Shown piece by piece: positions 5,830 through 48,155 of a stretch of DNA of 64,000 nt. The stretch covers positions 744,001 to 808,000 of the forward strand of contig JAPXFQ010002814.1 of the NCBI GenBank assembly GCA_028564705.1, in the 5' to 3' direction. The notes below the pieces were generated by a model. The model worked only from the letters and a program-made list of their open reading frames with translations. It did no database searches and had not been told where the DNA came from. How positions within the stretch are numbered: position 1 is the stretch's first letter; every line of letters begins with the position of its first letter. This DNA is from Apricaphanius iberus. Lineage: Eukaryota; Chordata; Actinopteri; Cyprinodontiformes; Aphaniidae. The position numbers were made by a program, and so were the translations under genes.

Positions 5830-7085
5830 AAAATTAATTCATTCAACTTAAAGGGTGAAACTAACAAAATAATAAAGACACATTACATGCAAAGTGAAAT
5901 ATTTCAGGCCATAATTTTGATGTTTAATTTTGATGATTATGGTTTACAGGATATGAACACCCCAACTTCAAAATCTCAGAAAATTTGAATACTGTGGAAA
6001 AGTTCAATATTTTTGACTCAGTCCCACAGTGTACTTAGCTAATTAATCTAAAACGCCTTAAAAGAGTTCCTGAACCTTTAAATGGTCTCTGTCTGGTTCA
6101 GTAGGAATCACAATAATGGGTAAGACTGCTAACCTGAAAGTTGTGCAGAAAAAAAAAATCACTGACACCCTTCATTAGGAGGTAAAGCCCCAAAAGGTAA
6201 TCAGAAAAGAAGTTGGGTGTTCCCAAAGTGCCGTATTAAAGCACATTAATAGGAAGTTAAATGGAAAGGGAAAAAGTGGCAGAAAAGTGTGCACAAGCAG
6301 CAGGGATGACTGCAGGCTGGAGAGGATTGACAGGAAAATGCCTTTTAAAAGTGTCTGGGACCTTCACAAGGAGTGAACTGCAGATGGAGGTAGTGCATCA
6401 AGAGGCAAAACAAAAAGCCACCACACAGACATAAACCAATGTTTAGAGTATGGAGAGGTCCACAATCTAAGATGCTTGAAGTCCAGTGTGAAGTTTCCTC
6501 TGTCTGTGTTGATTTGGGGAGCCATTTCATCTGCTGGTGTTGGTCTACTGTTTTTTTTTTTTTAGAGTCAACGCAGCCATCTACCAGGACACTTCATGCT
6601 TCCTTCTGCAGACAAGCTTTAAGGAGATGCTGACTTCATTTTCCAGCAGGACTTCGGTCCTGCCAGCACTACCAAAGTAATAACTGGTTCAATGACCTAG
6701 GACTACTGTGCTAGTTTGGCCTGCAAACATGCCAGATCTGAACCCCATAGAGAAACTATGGGGCATTGCCAAGAGAAGGATGAGAGAAATCACACTACAC
6801 AATGCAGACAAGCTGAAGGCCACTGTTGAAGCATCCTGGTCTTCAATAAAAACTCAGCAGTGCTACAGGCTGATAGCATCTGTGACATGCCACATTGAGT
6901 CAGTAATTGATGCAAAAGGGTCTCAAAATTATACTTTTCTGAGGTACAACATTTCTTCGTTTAAAATCCTTGTATTGAGTTCATGTAATATTCTAATTTC
7001 CTGAGATTTTGAATTTGAACCAGCTGTACACCTTCATTCAAAATTAACAATTTAAGAACATGTTCATTTACTTTTTGAATTAGTA
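5830..7085 (+). mobile_element. Tc1-like transposon, decayed
   Basis: Related sequence lies at both ends in opposite orientation, for example aaatctcagaaaatttgaat near 5.97 kb against its near-complement near 6.99 kb. Between them is a broken Tc1-type transposase on the + strand. Outer ends and the TA target duplication are not pinned down. Confidence 0.7.
6124..6935 (+). pseudogene. Tc1/mariner transposase pseudogene (DD34E type)
   Basis: Translation across several frames gives the Tc1 order. It opens with a MGKTANLKVVQ start and an HTH part with KSGRKVCTSSRDD. The core follows at about 6490-6700, read as VLIWGAISSAGVGLL and then STQPSTRTLHASF. The last part, from 6708, contains WPANMPDLNPIEKLWG, the proline-rich stretch carrying the catalytic acidic residue (the Glu of PIE), then AKRRMRE and IASVTCHIESVIDAKG. 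Stops and frameshifts occur near 6163, 6376 and 6630-6700. The family normally has about 340 residues and moves by cut and paste with TA duplications. This copy cannot encode a working enzyme. Confidence 0.8.
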
Positions 7086-23280: not shown

Positions 23281-23704
23281 TACATGAAAAGACTGTTAGG
23301 TTGCAACTCTTATGAGTTAGACCACATACACACATACAGATGACATAAAACACTAAATGACAAGTTAAGACCATCAAAGATGCACAGGCTATATTCTGAA
23401 TACTTCTAACACATCACACAGCTTGTACAGTTCCTTCTTGAGCCGTTAATATGTGGCTCTTCCTATCTTTCTGCAGCATTTGTTCGACTACTGTGACCTT
23501 AGATTTTTACCCTTACATGAGTTTCAGGCTTTTTTTCATCCATCTAACTGAAGGTAATGACCCCAAAGCTTAGTAAGACTTATCTAAGCTCAGAGCCTAA
23601 CTCTTATATCTTTCTATGGATAGTTTTGAAATGTTCTTTCTCCCCAAGCCAACAAAGTGGGTATGTGTCGTTAATATAAGAGAAAAAATAACCTATCGCT
23701 TGAG

Positions 23705-24652
23705 AGGTGGACCGGCTGGCTTCCTGGTGCAGTCATAACAACCTGGAGCTGAACGCCCAGAAGACAGTGGAGATGATCATGGACTTCAGGAAAGTCACAG
23801 CCCCACCGTATCCCCTCACCCTGATGGACTCTCCCACCCCCATCTCCATCGTGGACTCCTTCCGTTTCCTGGGCACCACCATCACCCAGGACCTCAAGTG
23901 GGAGCCAACCATCAGCTCCCTCATCAAGAAGGCCCAGCAGAGGATGTACTTCCTGCGGCAGCTGAGGAAACTCAAGGTGCCGACCGAGATGCTGGTGCAG
24001 TTCTACACGGCCATCATCGAGTCCATCCTCACCTCCTCCATCACCGTGTGGTTCCCCGGCGCCGCAGACCGGGACAGACACCGACTGCAGCGCATCGTGC
24101 GTGCTGCTGAGAAGGTGATTGGCTTCCAGGACCCGGAGGCGTGTGGGTCGGATCACAGCTGACCCTTCTCACCCTGGACACCGACTATTCTCCCTCCTCC
24201 CCTCAGGCAGGAGGCTACGGTCCATCCAGACCCACACCTCCCGCCACCTGAACAGTTTCTTCCCCTCCGCCATCAGACTCATGAACAATAACAAGACCCG
24301 ATAGTTCAGTTAAAGACCCATGTAGGATAGAACCATCTGCACTACGTAACTTTATTTTACTGCACTGTGTGGTCTGATCACACTTAGATCTGCTGCTGTC
24401 ATTCACCTGCACATCTGTGAATGGAACCCTGCTGCTGTTCTTATGTTAAAAGGATGTTTATCTCTTCATAGTTCTTTTATATTACATACAGATTATAATA
24501 TTTATAAAGACTTTAGCCTTATGGCTCATTCTTTTTATTTTATTTTATTTTTACTTATGTTAAATGTTTTATGTGCACAACTGTACCGGAAAAAATTCCT
24601 AGTTTGTGAACTTGTTCTCAAACAATGGCAATAAAACCGATTCTGATTCTGA
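23705..24652 (+). mobile_element. LINE 3' half, GC-rich and comparatively young
   Basis: This + strand copy begins inside the RT C-terminal region and runs to a 3' UTR ending in ataaaaccgattctgattctga, a short tandem tail. It is clearly more GC-rich than its neighbours and has one long open frame, which suggests a more recent insertion than the adjoining LINE. Confidence 0.75.
23707..24303 (+). pseudogene. LINE ORF2 C-terminal part
   Basis: The 151-codon frame 23707-24162 contains NNLELNAQKTVEMIMDFRK, then SFRFLGTTITQDLKW, then RMYFLRQLRKLKVP and YTAIIESILTSSITVWF. This is the conserved domain downstream of the catalytic YxDD in L2/Rex-type LINEs. A frameshift near 24.12-24.16 kb moves the last part to another frame (24119-24304), with DPSHPGHRLFSLLPSGRR and LNSFFPSAIRLMN, the usual C-terminus. 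The upstream endonuclease and catalytic RT core are absent. Long open frames on the other strand here are shadows. Confidence 0.8.
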
Positions 24653-28084: not shown

Positions 28085-30830
28085 ACTTGCAGTCAGGGGG
28101 AGGAAGGTGAGGCCGTGCCTCACTTGTCATCATAGAAATATAAAATTGAAAAATAAATCAAATTGTTATATTTATTCAATGATTTGTATTTTAAAGTTCT
28201 TTTCCATTTAACTTCCCCATTTTTAGATATTTTTTTTCAAAATCGCTAAATTTCACATTTACCATTTAAATACTAAGAAGAGACGAGCGTTGAGGCATCA
28301 CCCCGATGAGCCTCACCATGGATTGCGCAATGACTATGCTAACAGTGCTGGCATGCTAGCAGTGAGACCTGTTGCTGTTCCTCTGCATGTCACTATTAAA
28401 ATGTTCGAACACTTTTACTATATGAACAAAATTTCTATATTTTAGCTGGTGTATATAACGCACAGTGTTTTCTTTGCTATCAACAACTCCTGTATTTGTG
28501 TGTGTATTCTTGTGCTAAGCAATCCTAAAACTGCTGCTAAGAGGCACTAGGTGAGGCACGCAGTTCTTCTGCCTCATGGCAGGGGTCGCTGGTGATCCCA
28601 GGGATTCTTCTTACGACTCCCAGGCCTACAGTTACCAAGTGAAGTGCAGTCATTCAGTGATGTTTTTCCTATTGCATTGCCTTATTTTAAAAAGGGAAGA
28701 TTACATATCTAAACTGAAAGAATTGTCTAAACTGGATTTTCAATCGAAGCAGGAGATGATAATGAAAAGAAGACCAACACCGGAGCTAAAAGGTTTGCTT
28801 CAGACTACGGTAGAGAAGACCTGCTCTTTTCAAGCAGTGTGGTACACACGAAAAGGCTGGCTGTGTGGATGTCCAGCAAGAAACCGCCTTTTCTGCTTTT
28901 CCGGCCTTCTTTTCTCAACTTGTGACAATGTCTTGACTCAGATGGGATATTGCAACCGGAAGAATTTACAGAGAAGCCTCATCAAACATGAACGGTCGAC
29001 TGCACACATTCAAAGTGAACTTGCAGTAAAAACGTTTGGTATGTCCAGGATAGACTTGGCTTTGGACGAACAGCAAAGACTGAACATCAGCATCCACAAT
29101 GCCAAGGTAAAGTACGACCGGGAGATTTTAAAAGATGTCATCAATGCCACCTGCTTCCTCGGCAAACAACAGCTGGCATTTCATGGAAATGATGAAAGTA
29201 CAGACTCTGCTAATCGTGCCAACTATGTTGAAATGTTACATGCTTTTGCTGAGAAAGATGACAGGTTAACGAAACATTTAGAGACATCAACTGTATTTTC
29301 TGGCCTGTCAAATAGAATAGGGTACGATTTAATCGAAGCAGTCGGTGGTGTCATTAGAAATGACATTAAAAGGGAGATCAGTGCAGCCCCATTCGTTGCT
29401 GTGGAAGTAGATGAGACCACAGATGTTACAAACCAAGCTCAGATTTCAGTCATATTAAGATATGTGGCTATATCTGAAGCAGGCTGTGAGGTGAAAGAAG
29501 CCTTTTTGGGCTTCGATGATGTGAGTGAGGACAGTCCTGCCATTGCCGATTACATCCTGAGAGTGTTGGAAAAGTACGACTGTGTTGACAAGCTTGTACC
29601 TCACACCTATGATTGGGCCGCTGTAATGGCTTCAGAGTTCAATGGTGTGCAAGCTAAAATGAAAGAAAAAGTGCCCGAAGCCATATTCACGCATTGTTAC
29701 ACACACAAGCTGAACTTGGTGCTCTTGCATTCAGCAAAGTGAATGCCGGAATGTCACACGTTTTTTTAAAACAGCTGAGGGACTAGCGTCATTCTTCAGC
29801 AAGTCCACCAAACGCACTCACTTGCTAGATGAGGTTGTCAAGCGCCGTTTATCCAGAGCAGCACCTACAGGATGGAGCTCTAACTCTAGGTTGCTGCAGA
29901 CAATAAGCATGCACCAAAATGATCGGCACACGATATTTCATGTCATTATGGAAAATCCCGACATCTGGTATAATGACACACTGTTGATAGCAACAGTCGA
30001 TTAGATGTAACCTAAAACGAGTGTTCTGTAACATTCTGGAAAACGTTAGCAGTCAAATGAAGGCCAGGTTTTATCATTTTGCTGAGCTGGCTTTCCTTGG
30101 TTTGGTTCACTGTACAAAATTCGGTGTAATGTCACAACATTTTGATGACGCGAAACTGCAGAGCCTGTCAAAATATGGAAGATTCTTTGACTTTGTCAAA
30201 CTAAAGGCAGATCTAGTTGGACTGTATAGCTCCCAAACGGTGAGGGAAGAATGTAAATCTCCTGGACAGCTTCTCAGCTTTTTGGCCCAGAAGGATCTCA
30301 TTGAAACTGTTCCAGAGGCGACAAAGTTGCTCCAGCTCGTGCTCACTATTCCCGCTACCACAGCATCGGTGGAGCGGTCCTTCTCTGCCCTGAAAAGACT
30401 AAGGAAAACATACAGTCAAAACAGGACTGATCAAGGCTTTTGGCAGTGATCTCCATTGAAAAAGAGAGACTTTTAAAACTGAGGACAGATCAGGAATAAT
30501 TCTACAAACAAGTTATTGATTATTTTCCTAAGAAGGAGCGGCGCATGGACTTCATTTATAAGTAAAGGTATGTCGTGACGTTAATAAGATTTTTGTAAGT
30601 TATTTTTTCTCTGTGCAAGTTTGTATATGTAAAGAATGCTTATAATGTCAGCATTCTTACATATAAGCCTGATATGAAATTTCTCTGGAGTGGCTGCGGT
30701 TTCTTTAACCGAGAACTAAGCCCAGTATGTGTACGCCAGCATCTACATTATAATACATTCTACACTGACTGTGATGACGGTGGTGCCTCACTAGCCATGA
30801 ACCTCACCGCACGTAACTGGCACAAACACA
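28085..30830 (+). mobile_element. hAT-type transposon, decayed
   Basis: A transposase pseudogene is flanked by aggtgaggc/gcctcac words near 28.10 kb and 30.79 kb. Exact TIRs and the 8-bp duplication expected of hAT elements could not be fixed. Confidence 0.5.
28576..30560 (+). pseudogene. hAT transposase pseudogene (ZMYM1-like type)
   Basis: The first frame (28576-29742, 388 codons) holds a TTF-type zinc-finger region: AVWYTRKGWLCGC, RNRLFCFSGLLFS, then SLIKHERSTAH with the terminal His. The RNase-H-like core start follows (FVAVEVDETTDVTNQAQIS), where the Asp of VDETTD is the usual first catalytic residue, then THCYTHKLNLVLLHSA. At 29742 the frame is broken. It resumes at 29822 (KRRLSRAAPTGWSS) and 30021-30449, which carries PATTASVERSFSALKRLRK, the hAT dimerisation motif. 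A last shift separates SIEKERLLKLRTDQ. Unlike DDE integrases, hAT enzymes form hairpins on flanking DNA. The breaks make this copy inactive. Confidence 0.75.
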
Positions 30831-33578: not shown

Positions 33579-33584
33579 CTTTTG
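33579..33584. repeat. Target-site duplication, outer element (left)
   Basis: CTTTTG, immediately before the left end TATGAAGG. The identical hexamer follows the right end at 48150-48155. Confidence 0.75.
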
Positions 33585-33671
33585 TATGAAGGTAGATATG
33601 TTTCAAAACATCTGCGGTTGTAATTTGGATCCACACGTCTGTAAATCGATCTGCACCTCTGTAAATAGAAT
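33585..33671 (+). repeat. Outer element left TIR
   Basis: An 87-bp arm matching the complement of 48063-48149 with about five differences. It and the following 200 bp contain repeated words of the type ctgtaaat and cttgtatttt that may be sub-terminal protein-binding units. Confidence 0.75.
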
Positions 33672-34075: not shown

Positions 34076-34081
34076 CCTACA
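34076..34081. repeat. Target-site duplication, inner transposon (left)
   Basis: CCTACA directly before the left end. The same hexamer stands directly after the right end (47549-47554). Confidence 0.9.
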
Positions 34082-34129
34082 TATGGGCTTAATATAAGGC
34101 CATATATATTTCACAGATATATATGAATG

Positions 34130-34290
34130 TTTGCGGAAAAAAACAGCGTTTGCATTCATAAGTCAAATCTGTATGCAAAATAAAAGTTTGCAAATGTGTA
34201 AAAAGGATTTGCATGGTTGTAAAAAAAGTTTTGCATTTGTGGAAAAAATACACGTGCTTTTGCAAAACTTGCTGTTTACAGATGTGACAC
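34130..34290 (+). repeat. Degenerate sub-terminal repeats
   Basis: Short units of the form tttgcat/tttgcaaa followed by tgtgtaaaaa, ggttgtaaaaa, ttgtggaaaaa or ttacagatgtg occur several times close to the end. The same array is present in the right TIR. Such arrays often bind the transposase in other DNA transposons; here that role is inferred. Confidence 0.5.
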
Positions 34291-34358
34291 AAAAACCTGC
34301 ATGTGACACTCTGAAGTTTCGGTTGTGAATTATGTCCCTTTCTTTAAACATCTACCTG

Positions 34359-34455
34359 ATTGGATGGTGACAAATCAAAGTGTCCAATCAGAGAGCAGAC
34401 GGTTTCCAGGCCTGTCTCACCGCTGCAAACTCTTAAGGTGGAGCAGAGTTCCGAG
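34359..34455 (+). promoter_or_regulatory. Putative promoter in left TIR
   Basis: An inverted CCAAT box (ATTGG, 34359-34363) and a direct one (CCAAT, 34384-34388) lie 70-95 bp upstream of the exon 1 ATG at 34456. The sequence between is GC-richer than the rest of the arm and has no TATA box. The identical region in the right TIR (47175-47271) would drive the - strand gene. Confidence 0.45.
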
Positions 34456-37400
34456 ATGGAGGAAGGCGCGAGCTCGTCTGCTACTCAGGTACGTTATAAT
34501 TTATGATATTGTCGAAATTAAAGTTCACATTTAACGTTAGCCTACATTTAAATTTAAATAGCACAAAATAATCTTGCTTAAGCAAATTGTTTATTTGATA
34601 GCAGACAACTGAACATAGCCTACTTATAAACTATTTGTTAATAAGCCTGTTTACGGAAGAGCGTTATAACGATGATTACGTTTACAATGTATTATAATTT
34701 TCAACAAAGTGTGTTTTATTATTATGTTGGTAGCTAAGAAATAGCTTTTCCTAGCTAGCCATGTTGTAACCCCAAGCTAGCATCTGCACCGGGGTTTCGT
34801 CCGACATTTTTGGGAACCACACTTTAAAAACCTGTCTGAAAACATACTGGAGAGTAAGGTCCTGACCATGATCAGTTGAGAAGAGTCACTATAATACAGA
34901 AACATTATTAACCAGAACGTAGGTCCGTACAACCCGTTTCAGAAAGCAGGTTTTGTGAAAACTGTTAGTTAACAACCGTTGATTAGCAACCGACTGAGGA
35001 ATGTATTACAAAAACAATTACATGTACCAAAAACCTTACTGGATCAGATGACAGTAACAATCTGATACCAGTAAATAGTCCTGAATGTGTAACAGATCAA
35101 CACTGGGATTCATGTTAATCAGAGATCAACAAACATCAAATCCTGGAGGAGGAAAGTGATGTTCTCATATATTTCATCCAGATCATTACTGTATTCTTTA
35201 AAATCCTAGCACCCAGTAACTTTTTCTCCATGCAACTCAGGTGTACCATCTCACCTAATTCTACTCCTTTTTTCCAGTTTTTGTCTAAATGATTACTATC
35301 ATGTGAAATAATCTTTTTGTTGTTGTTGACCGAAATAAAGCATATTATTATTATTATATTATTCTCGCATCATCATCCTGTTAATCTAGTTGACATAATC
35401 TTTAGTTTAGCTCACAAAAAGGCCAAACTGTCCTTTATATCTAAACCATGCTCAGCCAAAACCACATCACCTGGAGAAGTTTCTGCAGAAGTCAACTGTT
35501 CTCTGGGATATATTTATCACTGCACTTCCCCCAAGTTGTAAATGGAGGGTTAAAATCTGCTGCTTCATTTGATTTTTGTGCATGCTGCTGCACACAAATC
35601 AGTGAAAGTAGAAAAGATTATAAAATAAATGAAATTCTAAGTAAGACTGAGAGAGAAATTTACAATGGCCAATACTTAACTGCTATAAACAAAAGATTGG
35701 TTCCCCTGAAATGACAAATCAATCCCATTGTTCTGTGCATTGATGACATATATGCACATTTCTATATTTTTTCTATAAATTACATTTAGTTTGCTCATTA
35801 TCTGTATTGTATAAAATAACTTGCCTACAAATATCTGTCGATGGTTCTTCTTACTAAACACAAGATTTTGTATTTTATTTCACCCACCTTATCCATCATA
35901 TTTGGATAATAAGTTTCTTGAAAGTTCAGTGTCACAGTGTTTTGTTGCTAGTATTTATGAAAATGTATGCATGTCTTCCACAGGAACAGAAATCGTCAAT
36001 AGAGAGAGCTATACGCAACTTTGTTAATGTTCTATCAAATGCCCGGCCCCAAGTGGAAGGTGTAACTGGAAGAACACGTATACAGAATAGTCAGCCACCA
36101 GCCTGCCCGCAGACCACCAGAGAGAACACTCAAAGTGAAATGCAAAGGTATCTGTTAACTAGTATAATTGAAAATGTTTTATTTAGCAATTTTTTACACG
36201 ACATTTGGCTCTATTTTCTGTTAAGTATTGTAATGCCTCATTTGAGGTTTTTTCTCTGTTTTTGTTTTTCCATTTTGATTAATTTATTCATGAATAAATT
36301 AATTATAGGTCGTTTCCAGCAATGTTTCAAAGAAGACAGAATAGAGGAAAGCGGCCTTTTCCAGCACCAAGTGTCGTCATACCAGTGGCTCGCCACATAG
36401 AGCTCAGTTTCTGTCTTCTGCCTGGTTCTACTACAAAAACTCCCAAGAATGAAATAAGGCTTCTTCAAGCTGGACTGGGAAGGCGGACAATTGACATAGC
36501 TGATAATGCTGATCATGAACAGGTAATTATTTTTCCCTTAGATTATTGGAGTCTATTGATAGAAATTGGCACTTGCTTCTCCTGGAATACTGTAGTTAGT
36601 AGTTCTTGGGAATGTAGTGGACTGATCTTTGAAATGGCACTTTGTTTTCTTTTTTTTCCATTTAATTATTTCTGTTCCTTTATCTAAACCTAGATCACCA
36701 AAGCTCTTCATGAGGAATATCCCAAAATGACCCTTCTTTTTGAGGGACAAGAAGACCATCTCATCCCCTGCACTTCTCGGATTTTAGCTGACAGTGACCT
36801 CTTTCTGGTGGCTGGAAGAATGATTGGACATTCCATTCTGAACGATGGACCTCGTCTTCATGGGATCAGTGATGCAATCATTCACATGCTTCTGTATGCT
36901 GACAAAGACACAGTCACAGTACACCTGGAAGATGTGCCAGATATTGATATCCGGACAACGATCCAAATGGTAAATAATAAAAAGTTAAAAGCCTTTCTCA
37001 GTTAATTTCTCTACTTATGACTGGTCATGAATCTTAATTTAGTCCTGCTTTTTTTTTCTGAAAATTAAAACATGAAAATGTTATTATATAAATTTAGGGT
37101 AAACATTTAAACTAGCAACTATTTTTTTGTTTATTTGTTTGTTTTATTTTAAATTAAGCTTGATGGCCACAAACCCCTGTCCGAGGAGCAGAGGAATGAA
37201 GTTTCTGCTCTAGCTATATCCTGGGACTTGCCACCTGTGAACACTGAAAATCGTAGATGGCTGTTCCAACAATTACTACATCATTCAGTGAGATGACACC
37301 TTAGTTATTTTAGATAGTGTTTTTGCGAAACTCAGCAGTAAACAATCCCATGTAGTTAGGAAAAGTTATTCAAATCTGCTAACTAAATCCTTACCAAACA

Positions 37401-40002
37401 ATTTATTCACCAATGTGTTTGAAAAGGTGTGTTGTAACGTGTTAAAAAGTTGAACTTAAACCCGGGTATTGTTTTTCGCTGTAACCATTCAAAGTTTAGG
37501 TATAGAATACTTATTTTTCTCAAAATTCCAAAAAGTTCATATTGACCTTGGATAGCTTGTGATGAGTCATAATAAGAGTTTTTTTTATCAGGATTCAGAC
37601 ATTTTTGCAACCATTTATTAATCACTGAGACCTTATTAATGTATAAAACAACTATGCCACCCATTCCCACTCACCTCTCCCAATACAGGTTCAGGGTTGA
37701 TTGCATAATAGCCTTATACGGTCGATTGCAGCCATCTGTCTTTCGCCAAAATCGTCTCTTGGATGCAAAACGAACACACAGTCATTTAATTTAAAAATAT
37801 AGTTTTATTGGTATAATACATGTACATCACTTCAGTATTCATCACTGTCTGTGTCATCTCCATCATGATTTGAAATTTTCTAAACCCAAACATGCTGAGA
37901 TGCACTTAACTAAATTTTTCTTGCAGCTGCACCGCTAGTTGCTGCAATCTCCATGGCAGTTTCAGCTGGTGAACTTTAGAGGCTCTTCAGGGCCCATGGG
38001 ATCAATTGTTGGGACCGGCTTATAACTATGTGCACCTAATGTCCATCCATAACCATTGGGTTTAGGAACATGGTCTGCAGAAGCATCCAATTCCGTGTTT
38101 GTAGGTAGGCATGAACTGAGTGTTTGGTAGCAGCACCTTCTGTTGGTAGTAGAGTTTCTGGTTATACAAGCCCTGCTGCTGCTTTCTGGGAGAAAATGTT
38201 ATATTAGATATTAACCAAAAGTGTTCCTGGTGCATGATAAATGTACTGAAAAATGGCAGTACCTGCCTTTATCACTGCATCCCGAGTGGCTCCTGTGTCA
38301 AGAAATATGATATGATGTGGTCATCAGTTGGCCTGCCCCCAGCACATAACCAGCAAAAGTTACACTAAGTTTTGTTTCGTATTATTCCAAGTGAAATCGA
38401 AATACTGCATTATCATCTTGATCATCATAATAAATTATTAAATTACTTTTCAAATAAGGTTGCTTTCATATATTTTTCTGCAGTAATATGGTCTCAGTGA
38501 TTAATAAATTGTTGCAAAAATGTCTGAATCCGGAAAAAAACTCTTATTTCGACTCATCCAAAGGTCCAAGGTTCCAAACACATTGGTGAATAAATTGTTT
38601 GGTAAGGGTTTAGTTAGCAGATAAATCAAATATCTGACAACATTCCCTAACTAATATCTCTATTAAACTCTTATCAAATTCTTGAGGTGATTGGACGAAC
38701 CATTAGGCAAACAAAGCAAATCCGAAAGGGACTCAAGGATACCGGTCTCTGGAATCTGCTACAAGAGAGGCCCGAAACTGCGTCAATCATATTCCCCCGT
38801 AATGCCGAAAGTGTTCTGACTGTCCAGGTACAGGCCAGCTTTTACTTATATCGTTGTTGATATACACAAGACCATATTTGATAAAACAAATGTAACTTCA
38901 ATATTTGGTGGGTTGAATAAATCTTTGTTTTTGCATTTTCTTCCTTTTCAGGCAGTTCTCAGCCACATTGTTTGGCCAGGGGAAGACAGTGATGAAGATG
39001 ATGATGCTCCTTACTCACAGTGTGTGCAGAATGAGATAGCAGGGTTTTTGAGAACTTTTATTGAGACAGGTGAGTACATTATTACGTTTAATATTTTTTG
39101 CAAACGTTGCATATTGTCCCAGGTCACAACCACCAGACATTTCAAGGAAGAGTTTCACTGAATTTTTAATGTAACAATGTAAAATTCCATTAAAATACAA
39201 TGATAATAATATAGTTAAACTACTTTTCTAAAACCGAAAAATCAAGAGTTCTTCAACTCAGAATTGGAAAAAATAGAGTTCAAGTTTTGACTGGAGTTCC
39301 AGGTGTTCAGAATAATATTGCATCAGCAACAAAAGAGGGAGAGCTCATAAAAAAAGAAAGTAAAGTAAATGTCTGGTATTAGCTTCTCCAGAATTTCCTC
39401 TAGTTTCTGCTCTTTCCGGTCACTCCTCTCCTGAGACTGATAACGATATCTACGGGGCACCGAAGCAGTTGCTGGACTTGCCAACTGCAGCATGTTTCCC
39501 AGTCCCAGCTGAGCTGTGCCCAACATATTGTTGGAATGTAGATATTAAATTCCACAACCCGAAATGGCGGCCGCTATTGGCTGGTAGATGTAAACACATG
39601 GGCATCGTCGTGCCTGTTGAGGTATATTTTTATTCAGATATTTTTTAAGGAAATGCTGAACTTTCATTCTGCACCTTTCAAAACGCCCCAGGGAGGTATT
39701 GCCTTTTTAAAAGTATAGCTTTTAATGAAAATGTTCCATATTCAACATTTTAGTTTAATTTTACTTCATATATTATCATTGCAGCCACTCCTCTGCAGCT
39801 CAGCCACCTGGTGAAGTTTTGGGTCGGATGGGAAATCCCCACTGGGCAGATGAAAGTCGAGGTAGTCAAGGGAGACTACCTCCAATCCTCAACATGCTTT
39901 GCCACGTTGCGCGTGCCTGGGCACTTAAATGAGTATACTGTCTTTGCCAAACATATTGATAGCTGCATTAGAACTTGTGATACTGGTTTTGGCCTCATTT
40001 AG
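34456..40002 (+). CDS. HECT-type E3 ubiquitin-ligase-like protein of the transposon
   Basis: Spliced CDS with exons 34456-34488, 35984-36147, 36309-36522, 36694-36969, 37159-37287, 38687-38827, 38952-39069 and 39785-40002. All borders are GT-AG and all phases match, giving 430 codons and TAG. Residues 1-11 are [11 protein letters not shown], shared with the transposase gene. Residues 12 to about 100 are Ser/Gln/Arg-rich. From about 145 it resembles the lower N-lobe of HECT domains (LFLVAGRMIGHSI), followed by an acidic insert (EDSDEDDD). The C-lobe is near 365-430 with SSTCFATLRVP, where Cys396 is the expected thioester cysteine, and the end is DTGFGLI. The match is to the G2/M-phase-specific E3 ligase-like proteins common in fish. 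The HECT part is about 285 residues against about 350 normally, so the E2-binding N-lobe seems shortened and activity is uncertain. Whether it helps transposition or affects host proteins is unknown. Confidence 0.88.
37375..38621 (-). mobile_element. Inverted-repeat element nested in intron 5 of the HECT gene
   Basis: The left arm starts tctgctaactaaatcc and the right arm ends in its near-complement. Further matching blocks lie at about 37560-37640 and 38490-38580 (agacatttttgcaac and similar). The interior reads on the - strand as a broken C-terminal ORF: PNGYGWTLGAHSYKPV, then after a stop NCHGDCSN-x-RCSCKK, then GDDTDSDEY. This recalls the cysteine-rich C-terminal tail (C-x-C clusters and an acidic end) of proteins seen in other fish transposons. 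No target duplication was settled. Confidence 0.5.
39323..39526 (-). other. Unassigned short ORF in intron 7 of the HECT gene
   Basis: A 67-codon frame opposite to the HECT gene. The first 50 residues are GC-richer and look protein-like (MLGTAQLGLGNML, then RYRYQSQERSDRKEQKLEEI, which could form a helix). The tail is AT-rich and no splice donor follows. It may be a remnant exon of another nested element. No function is proposed. Confidence 0.2.
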
Positions 40003-40243
40003 TCCTGGTTTATGCATGTTGATTGTTTGTCCTTGCAACCGTTTTCCCTGCCCCTTCCCGAAAAGCTGTTCTTAGTCCGGGATATTTCATTGCTTACCCC
40101 AGTGTGGTAATTTGTTGAAAAATTTTCAAGGATATTAATTTAATAAATTCTTAATTGAAGATTTAAGTTTTGCATATCCATACATTTGTATTTAATCCAA
40201 AGTAAGAAAAAGGTTACTGTTCAACATGTACACTGATCGGTTT

Positions 40244-40249
40244 AATAAA
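40244..40249 (+). terminator. Polyadenylation signal of HECT gene
   Basis: AATAAA about 240 bp after the stop codon at 40000-40002, followed by a T/G-rich stretch. It is the best 3' end signal before the opposing gene. Confidence 0.6.
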
Positions 40250-40287
40250 GACAGTGCAATGTTTTGAATTATCTGGTTTGTCTTGGC

Positions 40288-40293
40288 TTTTAT
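40288..40293 (-). terminator. Polyadenylation signal of transposase gene
   Basis: AATAAA on the - strand about 300 bp after the stop codon at 40592-40594. It lies about 40 bp from the opposing signal, so the two mature 3' ends would overlap by a few tens of bases. Confidence 0.6.
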
Positions 40294-40591
40294 TACAATT
40301 TCCATTTTAGTACCTTTTCATTTGATCCATATTTATGTTCTTAACAACTTTGTTCACAGGTAGCCTACAATACAATAATTTACACAATTTAATCATTTAA
40401 AGTAGCAAAATCGAGAGTAGAAAACCACTTGCCAAACCTGAACAGGATATAAATGTAAGCTATGCATTGCAATTTACCCCCCAGTTGCACACAAATATTC
40501 ATGGGAAATTTTTGACAACATAAGTGATGGCACTTGGGGGTTGCTAGTGACTCAGTAGACTTTCAAGTTTTAAGATGTTTAATGATTATGA

Positions 40592-43500
40592 TTAACACTG
40601 TTGTGGTTCAACACTTTTTACATACTGGACAACCGAACTGTATATGTCGGCCCCAAAACAAGAAGAAGGAGCCATGGGATCGAAAAGCTGGCTCAGCGTT
40701 TCCAAATCCTCCTGTTGAAGTGGAGACACCAGCTCTGGGATCTGTATGCCTACATGGTCCATGTTTGTAATGTCTAATTCTTGAAAGGTGGCCTGAAATT
40801 AAGCACTATGTGAGTAACAGTAGGATTTCGCATACATTTGAGATCAACAAAAATAAAAAAAGGCAAGCATGTATTTTTAACAAAATGGAAATTTAGTAAA
40901 CATAAAAATGTTCAGTCTTACATCAAGATTTTCAGGAGGGCTGACTGGATTCTGAGTCTTCCCAATTTCCCACAGCTGGTTTGGAGTGTAGTTCTGTTCA
41001 GTCCGCAGCGAATGGTTGTTCCAACCCACAGTGAATGTATCCAAATCTCTTTGGATGCGGGGTAGAAACACATACTGTGCACAAATCAGGTTTGTGCTGT
41101 TTGATGGATCCAGCTGTCCATCCTCCTCAAGACCATGAAGGACATCATAGTAGATGTTTGTCACAACATTCCAAACATCCCGCCATAGCCGCTCTATCCT
41201 GAAAACAGACATTTTAAATTATTTGCACAAACCAATGTTTATTGCAAAAACACTGTTTTAAAGAACAAGGAAGTAGAACAAATAAAAGATATTGAAAAAG
41301 AATAAAATAAAAATTGGGAAATGGCATCACAGAAGCACTAAAAAAAGGGGGAGGAATCTCAAAACAATCATTTAATGATACATTTTAAGATAGAATTTCT
41401 CAATTTCATGGAACAGAAAAACATTTCTTTTAAACAGTTCTGAATGAAGTGATTTGTTAATTCAAATTAGGAATTTTAACAACAAAGCTTGTGGATTCTC
41501 CAACGTGACAAGCAAACACCTTAACGCAGCAGATGCAATAGCTAATTACAACTTTGCATAATTACCTTTGGTTGTGGACACTTTTTCCGGACATAAAGCT
41601 TCCCCTTTCACAGCCTCGAACATCAAACATGTATCGAGCAATGTCAACATTTTCCACTCCTTGGTCTCCTCTCACACTAGTAACAATCATAAAAGCACAA
41701 TAAATAAAAAAAATACACTTCATAACAAAACTTAGCACACCCTGAGAATCCACATCAGAACAAGCTGAGTGAAATGTCTGTTATTGGTAGGAAACATGAC
41801 ATGATTTGATGGTGTTTGTTGAGAGCACCAACATGTAGGTCCAATATTAATTGCAGTTATCCCAATGAGAGTGCTGGCTGTGGCAGATTGAACCCACTGT
41901 TTACCTGCTCAAGTCCATGCCTATCTAGATAAAGCAGGCAAGATAATGTTACAATCAAGTTTGATATTCTCTGTCCCAGGAATCTCAAAGTCTGGCCAAG
42001 GGACACTGTTCTGCAGGGTTTATATATTTCACTGCTCCAACACACCTGACTTAGATTAATAGAGTGTGCAGAACCTTACAAGCAACTTGATCAATTCCGT
42101 TTAGATCATTTTTCTTCCTCAAGGAAAGCGCTAAAAATCTGCAGGACAGTGGCCATTGGTTGCAAGAGTATGAGTCTCGGCTTTAGCGCTTCAAAGTTCA
42201 GCTGCTGGTCAATAAAGCCCTGACTGGTTTAGGACCTACCAGACCCCTCACGTCATCTGGATCCGGTCTTTTATCAGTTCCCAGAGTCAGAACCATACAT
42301 GGAGAAGCTGCATTCAGCTTCTATGCTCAACATGACAGGAACAAACTCCCAGAAAGCCTAAGATCAACTGAAACACTCAGTTTATTTAGATCCAGGTTAA
42401 AGACCCACCTTTTCTCAACTACATCTGATCATTTGTATTCTACATTTCTAAAGTTTTTTTTTTGGGGGGGGGGGGGGGGGGAGGTGGGGGGGGGGGGGGG
42501 GTTGAATTTTTAAGTAATTGGTAAATTCTTTTTTCATTTATTAATTTTAAATCATGCTGCTTGTTTTATGTGGTATGAAGATTATGTTGAAAAGCATCCT
42601 GTTGTTGAATTGTGCCATACAAATACACTTGCTTTGCCTTTAAAAGGGGCAAGACATCATAAGTGTCTGGGAAACACATGCAAGGTAAAAGCAATATGAC
42701 TTATGAAATAATTATGTACTGTATACAAAAAAATTAAATAATCATTTTAAGCTATAATTTATTCTTTAACTCAAATATGAATCTGCATCATACCGAGATG
42801 GACAGCCGTGGCGCTCTACAGCTTCAAGGAAGAAGTCCAGAGCTGTAGATGCCTTGTTGTTGTTAGCTGCATTCAGGTACAGGATCTATGATAACACATT
42901 TTGTATTTACTCCGACAGCCAGTCAAATAGGTTGGTTACAAGTAAAAATTGTTGCCATTCCTGCTTCTATTAAATTTCAGTGACTTAAAAAGCATAGGGT
43001 GAGGAACAAAAGAAATGATAGGGAACACAAACCTTTCTTGAAAAGCCATCGATGCTACCAAACATCACAATCCCATATCTGCACAGTAATAGACACAAAG
43101 AGGACTGCTAACACTGTAATCCATTAAGTATATACCACAGTTACATAAGTCTGTGGGTGTGATAATTATTTTTACTTTTACTGTACATTAAACTCACCTG
43201 ATTAACTTGTGGTTGGTGTCAATATGTACAAGAAACAGAGGACCAGGAACACAGTATGCCCTTCTGACTACACAACCAAGATTTGCCATCCTCTGAAGTA
43301 TTCCTGCACTGTCCACACGATGCATGGAATCCCATACTCTGGTCCACTGCACTCTGTGGCCCAGTGCCCTCAGATGTCCCTTCACCATTCTGTGGCCTGC
43401 AACAAGACATATTTGAAAAAGAATGACCAAACATTATATCTGATATTTATGTAAATTGATAGTACAGTTTTTAAGTCAAAAATCTGACACACTTGCATGG

Positions 43501-46500
43501 AGAACCATTACATTAAACACTATTACGATGCATCTTATTAAATAGTTTTCACCCTTGCTTTCTCATTGTATCAAGAATAACTTAACATTTAATGAATGAT
43601 AACTTTATTTCATTTAACTGAGTCCTCAGCATGTTACAGTAGAGCATTAATCCTCCTTACATTGTGAGCAATTATTGGAACAAACTTCCTCTACTGGAGG
43701 TATTCCATTTTATTAATTTAAGTTCAAATCTCAGAGTCCTTTTACTTTTAAATTGTTGAGAAGCATCTGGCTTTTACTTATCCTAATGATCAACTTCCAT
43801 CTGCAAGGTCATTAAATTATAATATTACATTGCCATGTTCATTCACTGATAACTAAATGCAGATTATAACTTACTCTGTATGAAACATGGAGGGGAACTG
43901 AAAAAAAATCCTTAAAATAAAAGAATTTACAAAAACTCAGAAAAGGCTGTGGCATGAAAAGTCAACAGGTCAAACTGACCCAGATTTCTTGATTGTTGCT
44001 TGATTGTTGATACCAAGCCATCAAGTTCATCATCTGACAGTGAGCTGTAGGTATCTCTAATTGAAAGGCCCCATTCCCTCTTTCTACGGTGGATCGTTTT
44101 TACTGATACACCAAGAATCTTGGAGATACAGGGCACAGAAAGGTCCATCTTAATTAGTTCTTGAAGGTGGTCTTCAGAAATGCTCAACCTGGGGCGCCCC
44201 CGTTCACTAGCTATCTTGTCGAGTAGAATGGCTGGCCTTCTCCTGTCCATTTCAGATTGGATGAGGGCAATAAGCTGTTCCAGACCATCAAGTACCTAGA
44301 AAAATGTTTTAGAAAAGAAAAGAAATAACTCCTTACCAACATCACATATCGGATGTATTGATACAGAGGTTTTTATTACTTTTAAGTAGAAAATGTTTGT
44401 AAAGAAATACATGTCCTAAAAATTTCAAGTTGTACCAGAAATAATTCCAATTAACCCACCGATAGTGGAAAATTTACATGAGCTGAAAAGGAGAGAATCA
44501 GAGTCATTGTGCTTGTAGTGAGGAACTCCACATGGTCAAGGTCCAATGGCTGCTGCAGGCAGGCCTGTTCCAGTCTGTTTTGCAACTGTTGTAGGACTTG
44601 TCTTCCTAAATCCACCTGATAAGTAGGAAATGGAATTATTAAACTATTGATACTACTATTGATGGAAAATATTGCACAAGCAGCTTGATATGTGCCAATG
44701 CACATCAGAAACAATTAAGAATATTATACAGATATTTGTACATTCATTGTAATGCATTTGCCACCCAACTGTTTACACAAAATAAATTAACTTAGACCAT
44801 TTTTTTCGTTACATATGCAAACAACTGAAATCAACTCACCATGGAGTCAGAGTAGGCCCCCGTGCTAGAGAGAAGTAGACCAGCTTCCTCTGAGTTTACA
44901 GCCCCCTATTATGACAAACAATAACAAAATATGTAAGCATGTACCCATCTCTCCTGAAATATGTACTCTGACAAATCCAAAGTTACACTTCTCTATGTAA
45001 CCGTAAACAGGTTGAAGATATCAATTTGCTGAGAGAAGGAACAGTCAGAGCAATCAGAGGACAATAGCAAGATTAGTTCACAGAACCAAATGGGATATGT
45101 CACATTACATCATCAACATAGCAAATATCTGTTATCCGAAGAACTGTGGGAAACCAAATTTTACCATTACAGACACAAACACTACTGCTGCTGCCCTAGT
45201 CAATGTGGAAGTTTGAATCCACTGGTCCTCTGAATGGATATTTAACCTAATTAAAGCTGGACTACGTGGGTTAAAATATTGGTGCATAGAATCTTAATTG
45301 AATTTAGAGTACCGTAAATGCCACTGCTTAATAATACACATAGAGGCAATTTAAAAATGAACTATAAAGACATCCTTTAGAAAAGTTATGTGCAATTACT
45401 TTAGACCATGACTGGACACTCTTGTGTCTATTTCACAGTCATTGATACACAAAATAAAAATGATGTCATTACTTGATTGTCTTTCTAAAATATTCTGTTT
45501 TCAACATTATAAAGAAAGTTCCCATTTTCAAAATATGATGAAAAAATTACTGTGACGTTGTCTTTTACATCCATTGACTGTATAATGTCCAGCTTACACC
45601 CGATGTGTCAGGTCTGTTATCTACAGCCGGAGAATCCGAGAATGTAAAACGGTACTGTTTGACGAGATATTGATCAGGAAATAACATGTCTGTTCGAGTT
45701 CTGCTAAATCTTCTTCCTGCGTAAATCATGATTGTATTAAGTCATTATTGTTGATTATTATTAGTGTAATACTTGTATTAATTCAGCTTTTGCAGCTTTG
45801 GAACCGTGTGGTGGTGACAAGCGATGTCTGACAGCTGCTTCACAAGGTTGAGACTGGTATGAAATCAGGGAACTTGTCAGCAAGCATAGGTGAGCGAGGA
45901 GATTCCCTTTACGGAGTCGGTTACCATGGTAACAGACTTGGGGTGACGCATTCTTCGTTTTGCTGGAATTGGACAAGTTTGTTTCCCGACCATACTCCAG
46001 CTTTATAGCCTGGGTGCCAGCCGAACTTAGTCCCGACATGGACACAAGTAATCAGATTAAAAGCCTGATCGGACTAAAAATGCTTCGTGTAAACATGCCA
46101 GTCAGATTACACTGACCCGATCAAACTCATTTGGATCAATTGATCAATTCGGATTGAGAGGGACTGTGGTTTTGTCCGATCGTCATCCCGATTGACGTCC
46201 ATGTACACACCTATTCGGATTGATGGGGCGAAATAAAGCCGCACATAAGACGCTTCTCCTAGACAGGTGCTCCGCCGGGTGCTAATTTGCCCAGCGGAAG
46301 AAAACAGATGAGGGCCGCTCTCCTGTCCTCCGCTGTAACACCGTTGTAAAAAGTTACTGCGGTGTTAACTATAGGCAGATAGATATAGATATAGTTAACT
46401 ATAGGCTATTAATGTTGTAAGTCAACAGAAAAAAAATGCAAGGGAGAGGACGCACGGACAACGTGGTGTCAGCAGCGCATTAATAAAAAAAAAGAATTTT

Positions 46501-47174
46501 AAAAGAGGATCAGATAACGTGCATTTTCTTTTATGTTTCGTTTAAAACACGCCCCATAATCACAGCCCAATGGAGCAGATCAGTCACATTCTGATTAGAA
46601 ATGGTATGGCTACGTCAGGCTACCAGCTTTCTGGAACAGACATCAAATCCTAAATACACCCTTTCATTTGAGGGAAGTTTGTTTCATCAAGAAAAACTTG
46701 CTAAAACAAAACGTGCAGGAAACTGACCCTCGAGGACCGTTATACTAAGACAACTTCATCGGAGAGATAGTAAAACAACTGATGACTTCAACATACTCTT
46801 AACATTAGCTGGGTTCCCAAAAATGTCGGACGAAACCCCGGTGCAGATGCTAGCTTGGGGTTACAACATGGCTAGCTAGGAAAAGCTATTTCTTAGCTAC
46901 CAACATAATAATAAAACACACTTTGTTGAAAATTATAATACATTGTAAACGTAATCATCGTTATAACGCTCTTCCGTAAACAGGCTTATTAACAAATAGT
47001 TTATAAGTAGGCTATGTTCAGTTGTCTGCTATCAAATAAACAATTTGCTTAAGCAAGATTATTTTGTGCTATTTAAATTTAAATGTAGGCTAACGTTAAA
47101 TGTGAACTTTAATTTCGACAATATCATAAATTATAACGTACCTGAGTAGCAGACGAGCTCGCGCCTTCCTCCAT
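40592..47174 (-). CDS. DDE (rve-fold) integrase/transposase of the transposon
   Basis: Spliced CDS, exons in transcript order: 47174-47142, 44905-44840, 44615-44460, 44295-43980, 43396-43198, 43078-43033, 42885-42794, 41676-41566, 41198-40922 and 40792-40592. GT-AG borders and phases fit throughout, giving 498 codons and TAA. The N-terminus is [11 protein letters not shown], encoded in the right TIR. Residues about 118-165 hold GRPRLSIS and an HTH-like stretch ([16 protein letters not shown]), likely for DNA binding. The catalytic core has VHIDTNHKL (Asp250), VRGDQGVEN (Asp307) and RIERLWRDV (Glu342), a D-D-E triad with 34 residues between the last two. The C-terminal tail ends near [11 protein letters not shown]. 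The family is the integrase-core proteins widespread in fish and fungi. It should cut the TIR ends and join them to a staggered 6-bp target. No disabling change is seen. Confidence 0.9.
42180..42640 (+). mobile_element. LINE 3' end in intron 7 of the transposase gene
   Basis: The + strand reads as an ORF2 C-terminus: [15 protein letters not shown], then [20 protein letters not shown] and [14 protein letters not shown] 3' UTR follows, broken by a long T/G tract. It is 5'-truncated. It lies opposite to the transposase gene within the intron 41677-42793, so it does not disturb coding. Confidence 0.65.
42454..42501 (+). repeat. T10 followed by long G tract
   Basis: Ten T, then 18 G, A, GG, T and 16 G. 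Such a run could form a G-quadruplex on the + strand. It is also the kind of sequence that is easily mis-sized during sequencing. Confidence 0.9.
46040..46620. mobile_element. Probable MITE in intron 1 of the transposase gene
   Basis: Higher GC than the flanks, with repeated words such as agtcagatta, cggattga and tgtaaaca in both orientations, as in fish non-autonomous hAT or Harbinger elements. Ends are not resolved. Confidence 0.4.
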
Positions 47175-47548
47175 CTCGGAACTCTGCTCCACCTTAAGAG
47201 TTTGCAGCGGTGAGACAGGCCTGGAAACCGTCTGCTCTCTGATTGGACACTTTGATTTGTCACCATCCAATCAGGTAGATGTTTAAAGAAAGGGACATAA
47301 TTCACAACCGAAACTTCAGAGTGTCACATGCAGGTTTTTGTGTCACATCTGTAAACAGCAAGTTTTGCAAAAGCACGTGTATTTTTTCCACAAATGCAAA
47401 ACTTTTTTTACAACCATGCAAATCCTTTTTACACATTTGCAAACTTTTATTTTGCATACAGATTTGACTTATGAATGCAAACGCTGTTTTTTTCCGCAAA
47501 CATTCATATATATCTGTGAAATATATATGGCCTTATATTAAGCCCATA
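46812..47548 (-). repeat. Inner transposon right TIR (737 bp)
   Basis: The complement of 34082-34818. It carries coding exon 1 of the transposase gene (47142-47174, - strand) with donor gtacgt, the CCAAT-box promoter region and the sub-terminal repeats. Confidence 0.95.
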
Positions 47549-47554
47549 CCTACA
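47549..47554. repeat. Target-site duplication, inner transposon (right)
   Basis: CCTACA, the second copy of the hexamer at 34076-34081. Confidence 0.9.
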
Positions 47555-48062: not shown

Positions 48063-48149
48063 ATTCTATTTACAGGCGTGCAGATCGATTTACAGTCGTG
48101 TGGATCCAAATTACAACCGCAGACGTTTTGAAATATATCTACCTTCATA
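48063..48149 (-). repeat. Outer element right TIR
   Basis: The complement of 33585-33671 with about five mismatches. Confidence 0.75.
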
Positions 48150-48155
48150 CTTTTG
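48150..48155. repeat. Target-site duplication, outer element (right)
   Basis: CTTTTG, matching 33579-33584. Confidence 0.75.

Follow-up and report, generated by a model that had tools for sequence, protein, structure and literature searches.

The maize transposon MuDR carries two genes, mudrA and mudrB, which encode a transposase and an accessory protein, and has promoters in its two terminal inverted repeats (TIRs). Polinton/Maverick elements carry DNA polymerase B and capsid genes, and the transposase of the RAG transposon is Transib-like. As described in excerpts of the respective papers, Mutator TIRs contain promoters (PMC3310237), RAG1 and RAG2, a transposase and an accessory gene, were proposed to derive from one transposon (PMC4411706), and the target-site duplication (TSD) of Polintons is 6 bp long (PMC10045372). 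The excerpted part of the last paper also describes IS3EU/GingerRoot elements, which have TA...TA termini, a TSD of usually 6 bp, and a DDE transposase that lacks an HHCC motif. Fungal IS3EU members end in TAYGG...CCRTA, and some families carry TET/JBP and alpha-kinase genes (excerpts of PMC12730594). Thus, accessory genes are already known in the IS3EU superfamily. Here, we analyze a transposon at positions 34082-47548 of a 64,000-nucleotide stretch of the Apricaphanius iberus genome (GCA_028564705.1, contig JAPXFQ010002814.1, positions 744,001 to 808,000; hereafter, the window). The element very probably belongs to the IS3EU/GingerRoot type of cut-and-paste DNA transposons and represents a young copy with an internal deletion; it has two genes, one for a DDE integrase and another for a HECT ubiquitin ligase-like protein.

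The Element Fits the IS3EU/GingerRoot Superfamily and Is Part of a Repeat Family

The transposon measures 13,467 bp with both TIRs included. The left TIR (34082-34818, plus strand) starts with TATGGGC, and the right TIR (46812-47548, minus strand) ends with GCCCATA; each is 737 bp long, and the two arms match at 100%. Copies of CCTACA lie on either side, at 34076-34081 and 47549-47554, giving the flank junctions CCTACA/TATGGGC and GCCCATA/CCTACA. Among exact inverted matches whose ends lie no more than 40 bases from these positions, the longest was 737 bp and fell exactly at 34082 and 47548, and a separate inverted-repeat search returned the same arms at 100% identity. An earlier note on this DNA had pointed out both the mismatch-free TIRs and the CCTACA duplication, and both were reproduced.

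Comparison with described systems revealed that the element shares with IS3EU/GingerRoot transposons the TA...TA termini (TATGGGC...GCCCATA), the 6-bp TSD (CCTACA at the window copy), and a DDE transposase without the HHCC zinc motif (Pfam rva_4). These features fit the superfamily as it is described in the published excerpts. In contrast, the excerpts of PMC10045372 and PMC12730594 describe neither a HECT gene nor a start exon within the TIR for IS3EU/GingerRoot elements, and the word "hect" is absent from both texts. MuDR is alike in having two genes, for a transposase and an accessory protein, and promoters in both TIRs (probable for our element), which is a working likeness and not kinship; its transposase is unrelated, and in the window element, the common first coding exon is itself predicted to lie in the TIR. 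RAG1/RAG2 also combines a transposase with an accessory gene, but both the transposase (Transib-like) and the accessory protein differ. In the literature searched, which excludes most subscription journals and Repbase reports, we found no report linking a HECT gene to such a transposon: "hect" does not occur in the main text of PMC4255032, and the excerpts of PMC5753468 and PMC12763893 mention IS3EU without HECT. Within that literature, we also found no earlier description of the HECT partner or the TIR start-exon arrangement.

We searched the genome (1.195 Gb in 1,979 contigs) with a 28-base terminus pattern, allowing up to two mismatches. The pattern gave 19 matches, 17 exact and two with one mismatch, while its reversed control gave none in the same genome; thus, the transposon is a repeat family. 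Fourteen contigs contained matches. Seven hold long copies (C1836, which is the window, C1927, C1406, C1965, C1949, C952, and C10) and seven hold short ones (C194, C453, C630, C906, C1053, C169, and C823). The flanking sequences of the long copies differ; beyond the window and C1965, the long copies have one flank only. Over 13,053 aligned bases, and not counting gaps, the window and C1927 differ at 10 positions. Judged by sequence, the two-gene family is real and recently active.

Contigs C1927, C1406, C10, C952, and C1949 start exactly at the first base of the element or break at window position 36730, indicating that the assembly breaks at this transposon family. At the right ends of C10 and C1965, the TIR terminus is partly duplicated in tandem.

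The Integrase and HECT-Like Genes Are Paired

All seven long copies of the family contain matches to both the integrase and the HECT-like protein, the latter often partial. Genome searches with the integrase returned 103 matches (92 of 642 candidates scored), and those with the HECT-like protein returned 113 (101 of 240 candidates scored). For a test in diverged families, we clustered the matches and left out the seven long-copy contigs, which yielded 70 loci for the integrase and 44 for HECT. Among loci scored, 14 of the 70 integrase loci had a HECT match within 20 kb, compared to 0.10 expected by chance. The two genes were convergent at all of these loci except C1736 (13 of 14). C1404 also holds both genes, convergent and wider apart; its integrase lies outside the 70 loci. 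At C1839, no HECT match was present in the 9 kb downstream of the integrase.

These data indicate that the integrase and HECT-like genes really do travel together as one unit. The earlier note had proposed such a unit, and the proposal is borne out by the long copies, the mostly convergent diverged pairs, and the shared N termini described below. It had further suggested that the unit explains the expansion of both protein groups in fish. The unit contributes to both expansions but may not account for all of either: 56 of the 70 integrase loci and 30 of the 44 HECT loci lacked a partner among the candidates scored, a figure that does not imply solo status.

In two protein records, P0051 from Brachyhypopomus and P0281 from Gymnothorax, residues of the integrase and of the HECT family occur together. 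These records may be gene-model joins or tandem elements and were not counted as pairs.

Both Predicted Genes Open with the Same Exon inside the TIRs

The same 33-bp first coding exon, encoding 11 residues, opens both predicted gene models. It lies within the left TIR for the HECT-like gene (34456-34488, plus strand) and within the right TIR for the integrase gene (47174-47142, minus strand). Examination of fish protein records revealed similar sharing within four other species. In Melanotaenia boesemani, the integrase P0001 begins with MDESASTSVT and the HECT protein P0121 with MDEGASTSVT; in Oreochromis niloticus, the corresponding N termini are MEDGGGASAAQ (P0002) and MEDSGGASAAQ (P0122). 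The integrase P0007 and the HECT protein P0189 of Dissostichus eleginoides both have MEEPEANSSGTQ at the N terminus, and P0049 and P0245 of Trichomycterus rosablanca, an integrase and a HECT protein, both have MAANFSSGTS.

To quantify this sharing, we compared records that start with methionine (114 of the 120 listed integrases and 162 of 167 HECT records, with P0281 left out). Eight of 18,468 integrase-HECT comparisons reached at least 8 identities in 10 positions, and four of the eight were within one species; the other four joined different species or included a record that lacks a species name. When methionines internal to HECT proteins were used as a control, none of 220,590 comparisons reached this level; with integrase-internal methionines, four of 223,722 did, all in the mixed integrase-HECT protein P0051. 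The Melanotaenia proteins P0004 and P0123 share only MAEAQ, yet have consecutive LOC numbers, which suggests that their genes are neighbors. Together, the shared N termini suggest that other fish have the same arrangement.

We also examined diverged TIRs of the same genome. C1404 and one of the two C1724 TIRs retain the ATG and splice donor of the start exon, and the ATG is lost in the TIRs of C1843 and C765. Upstream of the exon, the TIR contains the pair CTGATTGG...CCAATCAG, which is whole in C1843a, C1404, C765a, and C765b and which is probably a CCAAT promoter.

The HECT-Like Gene of the Window Copy Is Internally Deleted

The HECT-like model has eight exons on the plus strand, which are open in frame and encode 430 residues, including those of the TIR exon. 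The remaining exons of this predicted GT-AG model extend from 35984 to 40002 (35984-36147, 36309-36522, 36694-36969, 37159-37287, 38687-38827, 38952-39069, and 39785-40002). A 411-residue version of the window protein matched the Pfam HECT domain (PF00632) with an E value of 1.4e-6 and 28.7 bits (cut-off 23.9), and 12 of 15 homologues matched PF00632 at E 0.001. In a family profile, the cysteine of the HECT C-lobe lined up with chains of AREL1 and HUWE1 at weak E values of 0.015-0.022; E6AP was also among the profile matches, again weakly (E 0.25 and 0.81). By these weak scores, the window protein fits a HECT domain with a C-lobe cysteine. A profile search of solved structures with the HECT protein returned nothing at E 0.001, and the homologue P0121 had no match in PHROGs.

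Comparison with the longest copy (C1927:1-18181, 18.2 kb) revealed that C1927 has an additional 5,164 bases between window positions 36730 and 36731, where the junction in the window shows a 2-bp overlap. These bases encode further HECT exons, the residues of which occur in the fish homologues P0121, P0122, P0123, and P0127. The window copy has therefore lost this segment; an insertion in C1927 was considered and ruled out, as the segment carries exons with residues of homologous fish proteins. Relative to C1927 and the same four homologues, the window protein has an in-frame gap of about 285 residues. The missing part includes both zinc-finger-like motifs, which have weak similarity to RNF125, XAF1, and RAD18 (E 0.039-0.08), and the start of the HECT region. 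Thus, the window copy, described in the earlier note as apparently intact, is not: by comparison with these relatives, its HECT-like gene is internally deleted, and the whole protein could not be made from it.

Other copies also carry lesions in this gene. C1406 and C1965 have other deletions, and C1927, C1406, and C952 have a one-base frameshift in one HECT exon. Since these three share an assembly node, the frameshift could have arisen once or reflect an error of assembly. The sequences of C1949, C952, and C10 start or stop within the HECT gene. In addition, 416 bp of HECT intron in the window (37926-38341) are absent from C10, C952, C1406, C1927, and C1949, reflecting either an insertion or a deletion. 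Within the HECT part of C1927, a Tc1-like transposase lies at element positions 5938-6750 (minus strand); its DDE_3 match is below the DDE_3 cut-off, and its HTH matches are above theirs.

The Integrase Gene and the Element Ends Are Whole

The integrase model has ten exons on the minus strand, which are open in frame and encode 498 residues, including the TIR exon. Exons 2-10 of this predicted GT-AG model lie between 44905 and 40592 (44905-44840, 44615-44460, 44295-43980, 43396-43198, 43078-43033, 42885-42794, 41676-41566, 41198-40922, and 40792-40592). The GT-AG models thus give the same lengths, 498 and 430 codons, that had been reported earlier for the two genes, with all exons joining in frame; for either gene, a first exon within the TIR is required. 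A 459-residue version of the integrase matched Pfam rva_4 (PF24764) with an E value of 2.5e-74, and a zinc-binding integrase domain was not among the five Pfam families listed up to E 1. From the model and an alignment of homologues, the DDE triad is D250, D307, and E342, and 34 residues separate D307 from E342. A profile search of solved structures with the integrase returned nothing at E 0.01, and even up to E 10 no noteworthy match appeared; in PHROGs, the homologue P0002 had weak transposase matches.

The ten integrase exons (1,497 bases) are identical in the window, C1927, C1406, C1965, and C952, and three of the four other copies (C1927, C1406, and C952) share an assembly node. Because the window and C1927 have so few mismatches overall, this identity is weak evidence for selection, and alone is not significant by rough reckoning. 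C1404, a decayed sister copy, is 94.3% identical to the window over 874 aligned exon bases; for the rest of the sequence between the TIRs (2,890 bases), identity is 87.8%. This difference supports the predicted exon model. No counterparts of three integrase exons were found in C1404. A dN/dS comparison of the window with C1404 was uninformative as a test of purifying selection, and exon versus non-exon identity was used instead. We conclude that the integrase coding sequence, as modeled, and the element ends are whole in this copy, which may be mobile, as the earlier note proposed.

Short Remnants Suggest Excision

Five loci retain both ends of the element in remnants of 34 bp (C823), 53 bp (C169), 78 bp (C453), 106 bp (C630), and 123 bp (C1053). 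The 106-bp remnant recurs on C906, and the matching flanks indicate that C630 and C906 are one locus. The flanking 6 bases are repeated exactly at three of the five two-ended loci. These remnants suggest cut-and-paste excision followed by interrupted gap repair; they may also have arisen by simple internal deletion.

Alternative Explanations

We considered whether the window could contain an intact autonomous element in which both genes are complete and working. Perfect TIRs, a TSD, and two models that are open in frame speak for such an element. However, about 285 HECT residues present in fish homologues and in C1927, where the 5.2 kb missing here encodes them, are lacking, so that one gene has lost both zinc-finger-like motifs as well as the beginning of the HECT region, making this explanation very unlikely. 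Derivation from a Polinton/Maverick would account for the long TIRs, the 6-bp TSD, and the retroviral-type integrase core, which are common to both, but we regard it as very improbable. The longest stop-to-stop open reading frame (ORF) in the element is 180 aa, and none of ten chosen ORFs (82-180 aa, of 111; three overlap HECT exons) matched Pfam at E 0.01. No polymerase or capsid-like gene was seen in this limited ORF search, which could miss genes in short exons and covered only pieces of the 5.2 kb of C1927, and the termini fit IS3EU. A third explanation, in which the transposon captured the HECT-like gene from a fish and carries it as a mere passenger with no role in transposition, is unlikely, though less so than the other two. 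Every copy that could be read across has a HECT lesion (deletions in the window, C1406, and C1965, and the C1927 frameshift, possibly an error of assembly), while those copies do not differ in their integrase coding sequence. Against a passenger, the convergent pairing in diverged families and the start exons shared within four other species argue for a long association and not one capture.

Several observations weigh against our preferred reading of the element as a two-gene transposon of the IS3EU/GingerRoot type that is young and internally deleted. C10, C952, C1406, and C1927 share one assembly node, so fewer than seven long copies are independent; C10 differs from the copies sharing its node at 0 or 1 positions in 10,368 bases. 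C1965 shares 7 flanking bases and not 6, two remnants have one TSD mismatch, and C194, which retains one end only, has no TSD. The paired diverged loci include probable duplicates or recent copies, judged by near-equal spacing (C1005/C112/C1092, C136/C1390/C1898, C1001/C371, C1175/C1604, and C191/C1259), such that perhaps about seven independent cases remain, counting C1612 and C1736. No flanking inverted repeat was present within 9.9 kb of the C1005 gene pair. The HECT match is weak, with the closest homologue P0121 scoring 24.0 bits against the cut-off of 23.9, P0122 scoring 13.8 bits, and P0123 having no Pfam HECT match at E 0.1. The dN/dS of the window relative to the decayed C1404 is only 0.65 (290 codons). 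At looser thresholds, the sharing of N termini is not clear of chance: six HECT records have at least 6 of 10 identities, and four have at least 5 leading residues in common, where 300 size-matched draws gave on average 1.8 (at most 6) and 0.65 (at most 4), respectively. Only four of seven other TIR sequences have the whole CCAAT pair. Finally, the gene models are predicted from sequence, and the fish proteins are database records that are at least partly predictions.

A Model for a Transposon with a Probable Ubiquitin Ligase

A model that accommodates our data is that each TIR is a gene start, consisting of an upstream region with the CCAAT pair, a probable promoter, followed by the common first coding exon. 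A transcript from the right TIR would be spliced into the integrase gene, and the start exon in the left TIR would be spliced into the HECT-like gene, with the two genes converging. The DDE integrase would cut at the TATGGG termini, and its insertion at target strands staggered by 6 bp would create the CCTACA duplication. The gap left by excision would be copied from the sister, and failed copying could produce either internally deleted copies or the 34-123 bp remnants. The whole HECT protein, which is 714 aa in the closest relative and has the two zinc-finger-like motifs and the C-lobe cysteine, would most likely be an accessory ubiquitin ligase, with the transposase or a host factor as its target.

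We give roughly even chances to a broader model, in which two-gene transposons of this kind are widespread in fish, each TIR supplies a promoter and a common first coding exon, so that the transposase and a dedicated HECT ligase share their N terminus and their control, and the ligase serves as a true cofactor for transposition or in counter-defence. In this model, the two halves of such elements make up part of the expansions known as "integrase-core" and "G2/M E3 ligase-like". Since our data tie two multicopy fish protein groups to one mobile unit, their annotations need re-reading. The architecture suggested here, in which one inverted repeat would serve as transposase site, promoter, and start exon, also raises the question of why a ubiquitin ligase should be part of a transposon. 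Because a single genome holds both recent copies and small remnants, the outcomes of excision and repair can be read from it directly.

Relatives in Fish and Neighboring Sequences

Among the best 120 listed for each protein, the named relatives are from fish, the only exception being a second label that P0002 and P0122 carry. Their records are labeled as uncharacterized proteins or cell-cycle E3 ligases. Four integrase or HECT relatives (P0020, P0115, P0232, and P0267) are named as a bacterial toxin, regulator, or enzyme; these unrelated names are evidently annotation slips.

Outside the element, an 88-nt inverted repeat with 94% identity lies on both sides, at 33584-33671 and 48063-48150, and the transposon may thus have inserted into another repeat or transposon. 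Long open frames occur elsewhere in the window at 28555-30446 and 23704-24159. By eye, one of these frames ends in residues that resemble the C terminus of a hAT transposase, and the other frame resembles a piece of a LINE reverse transcriptase.

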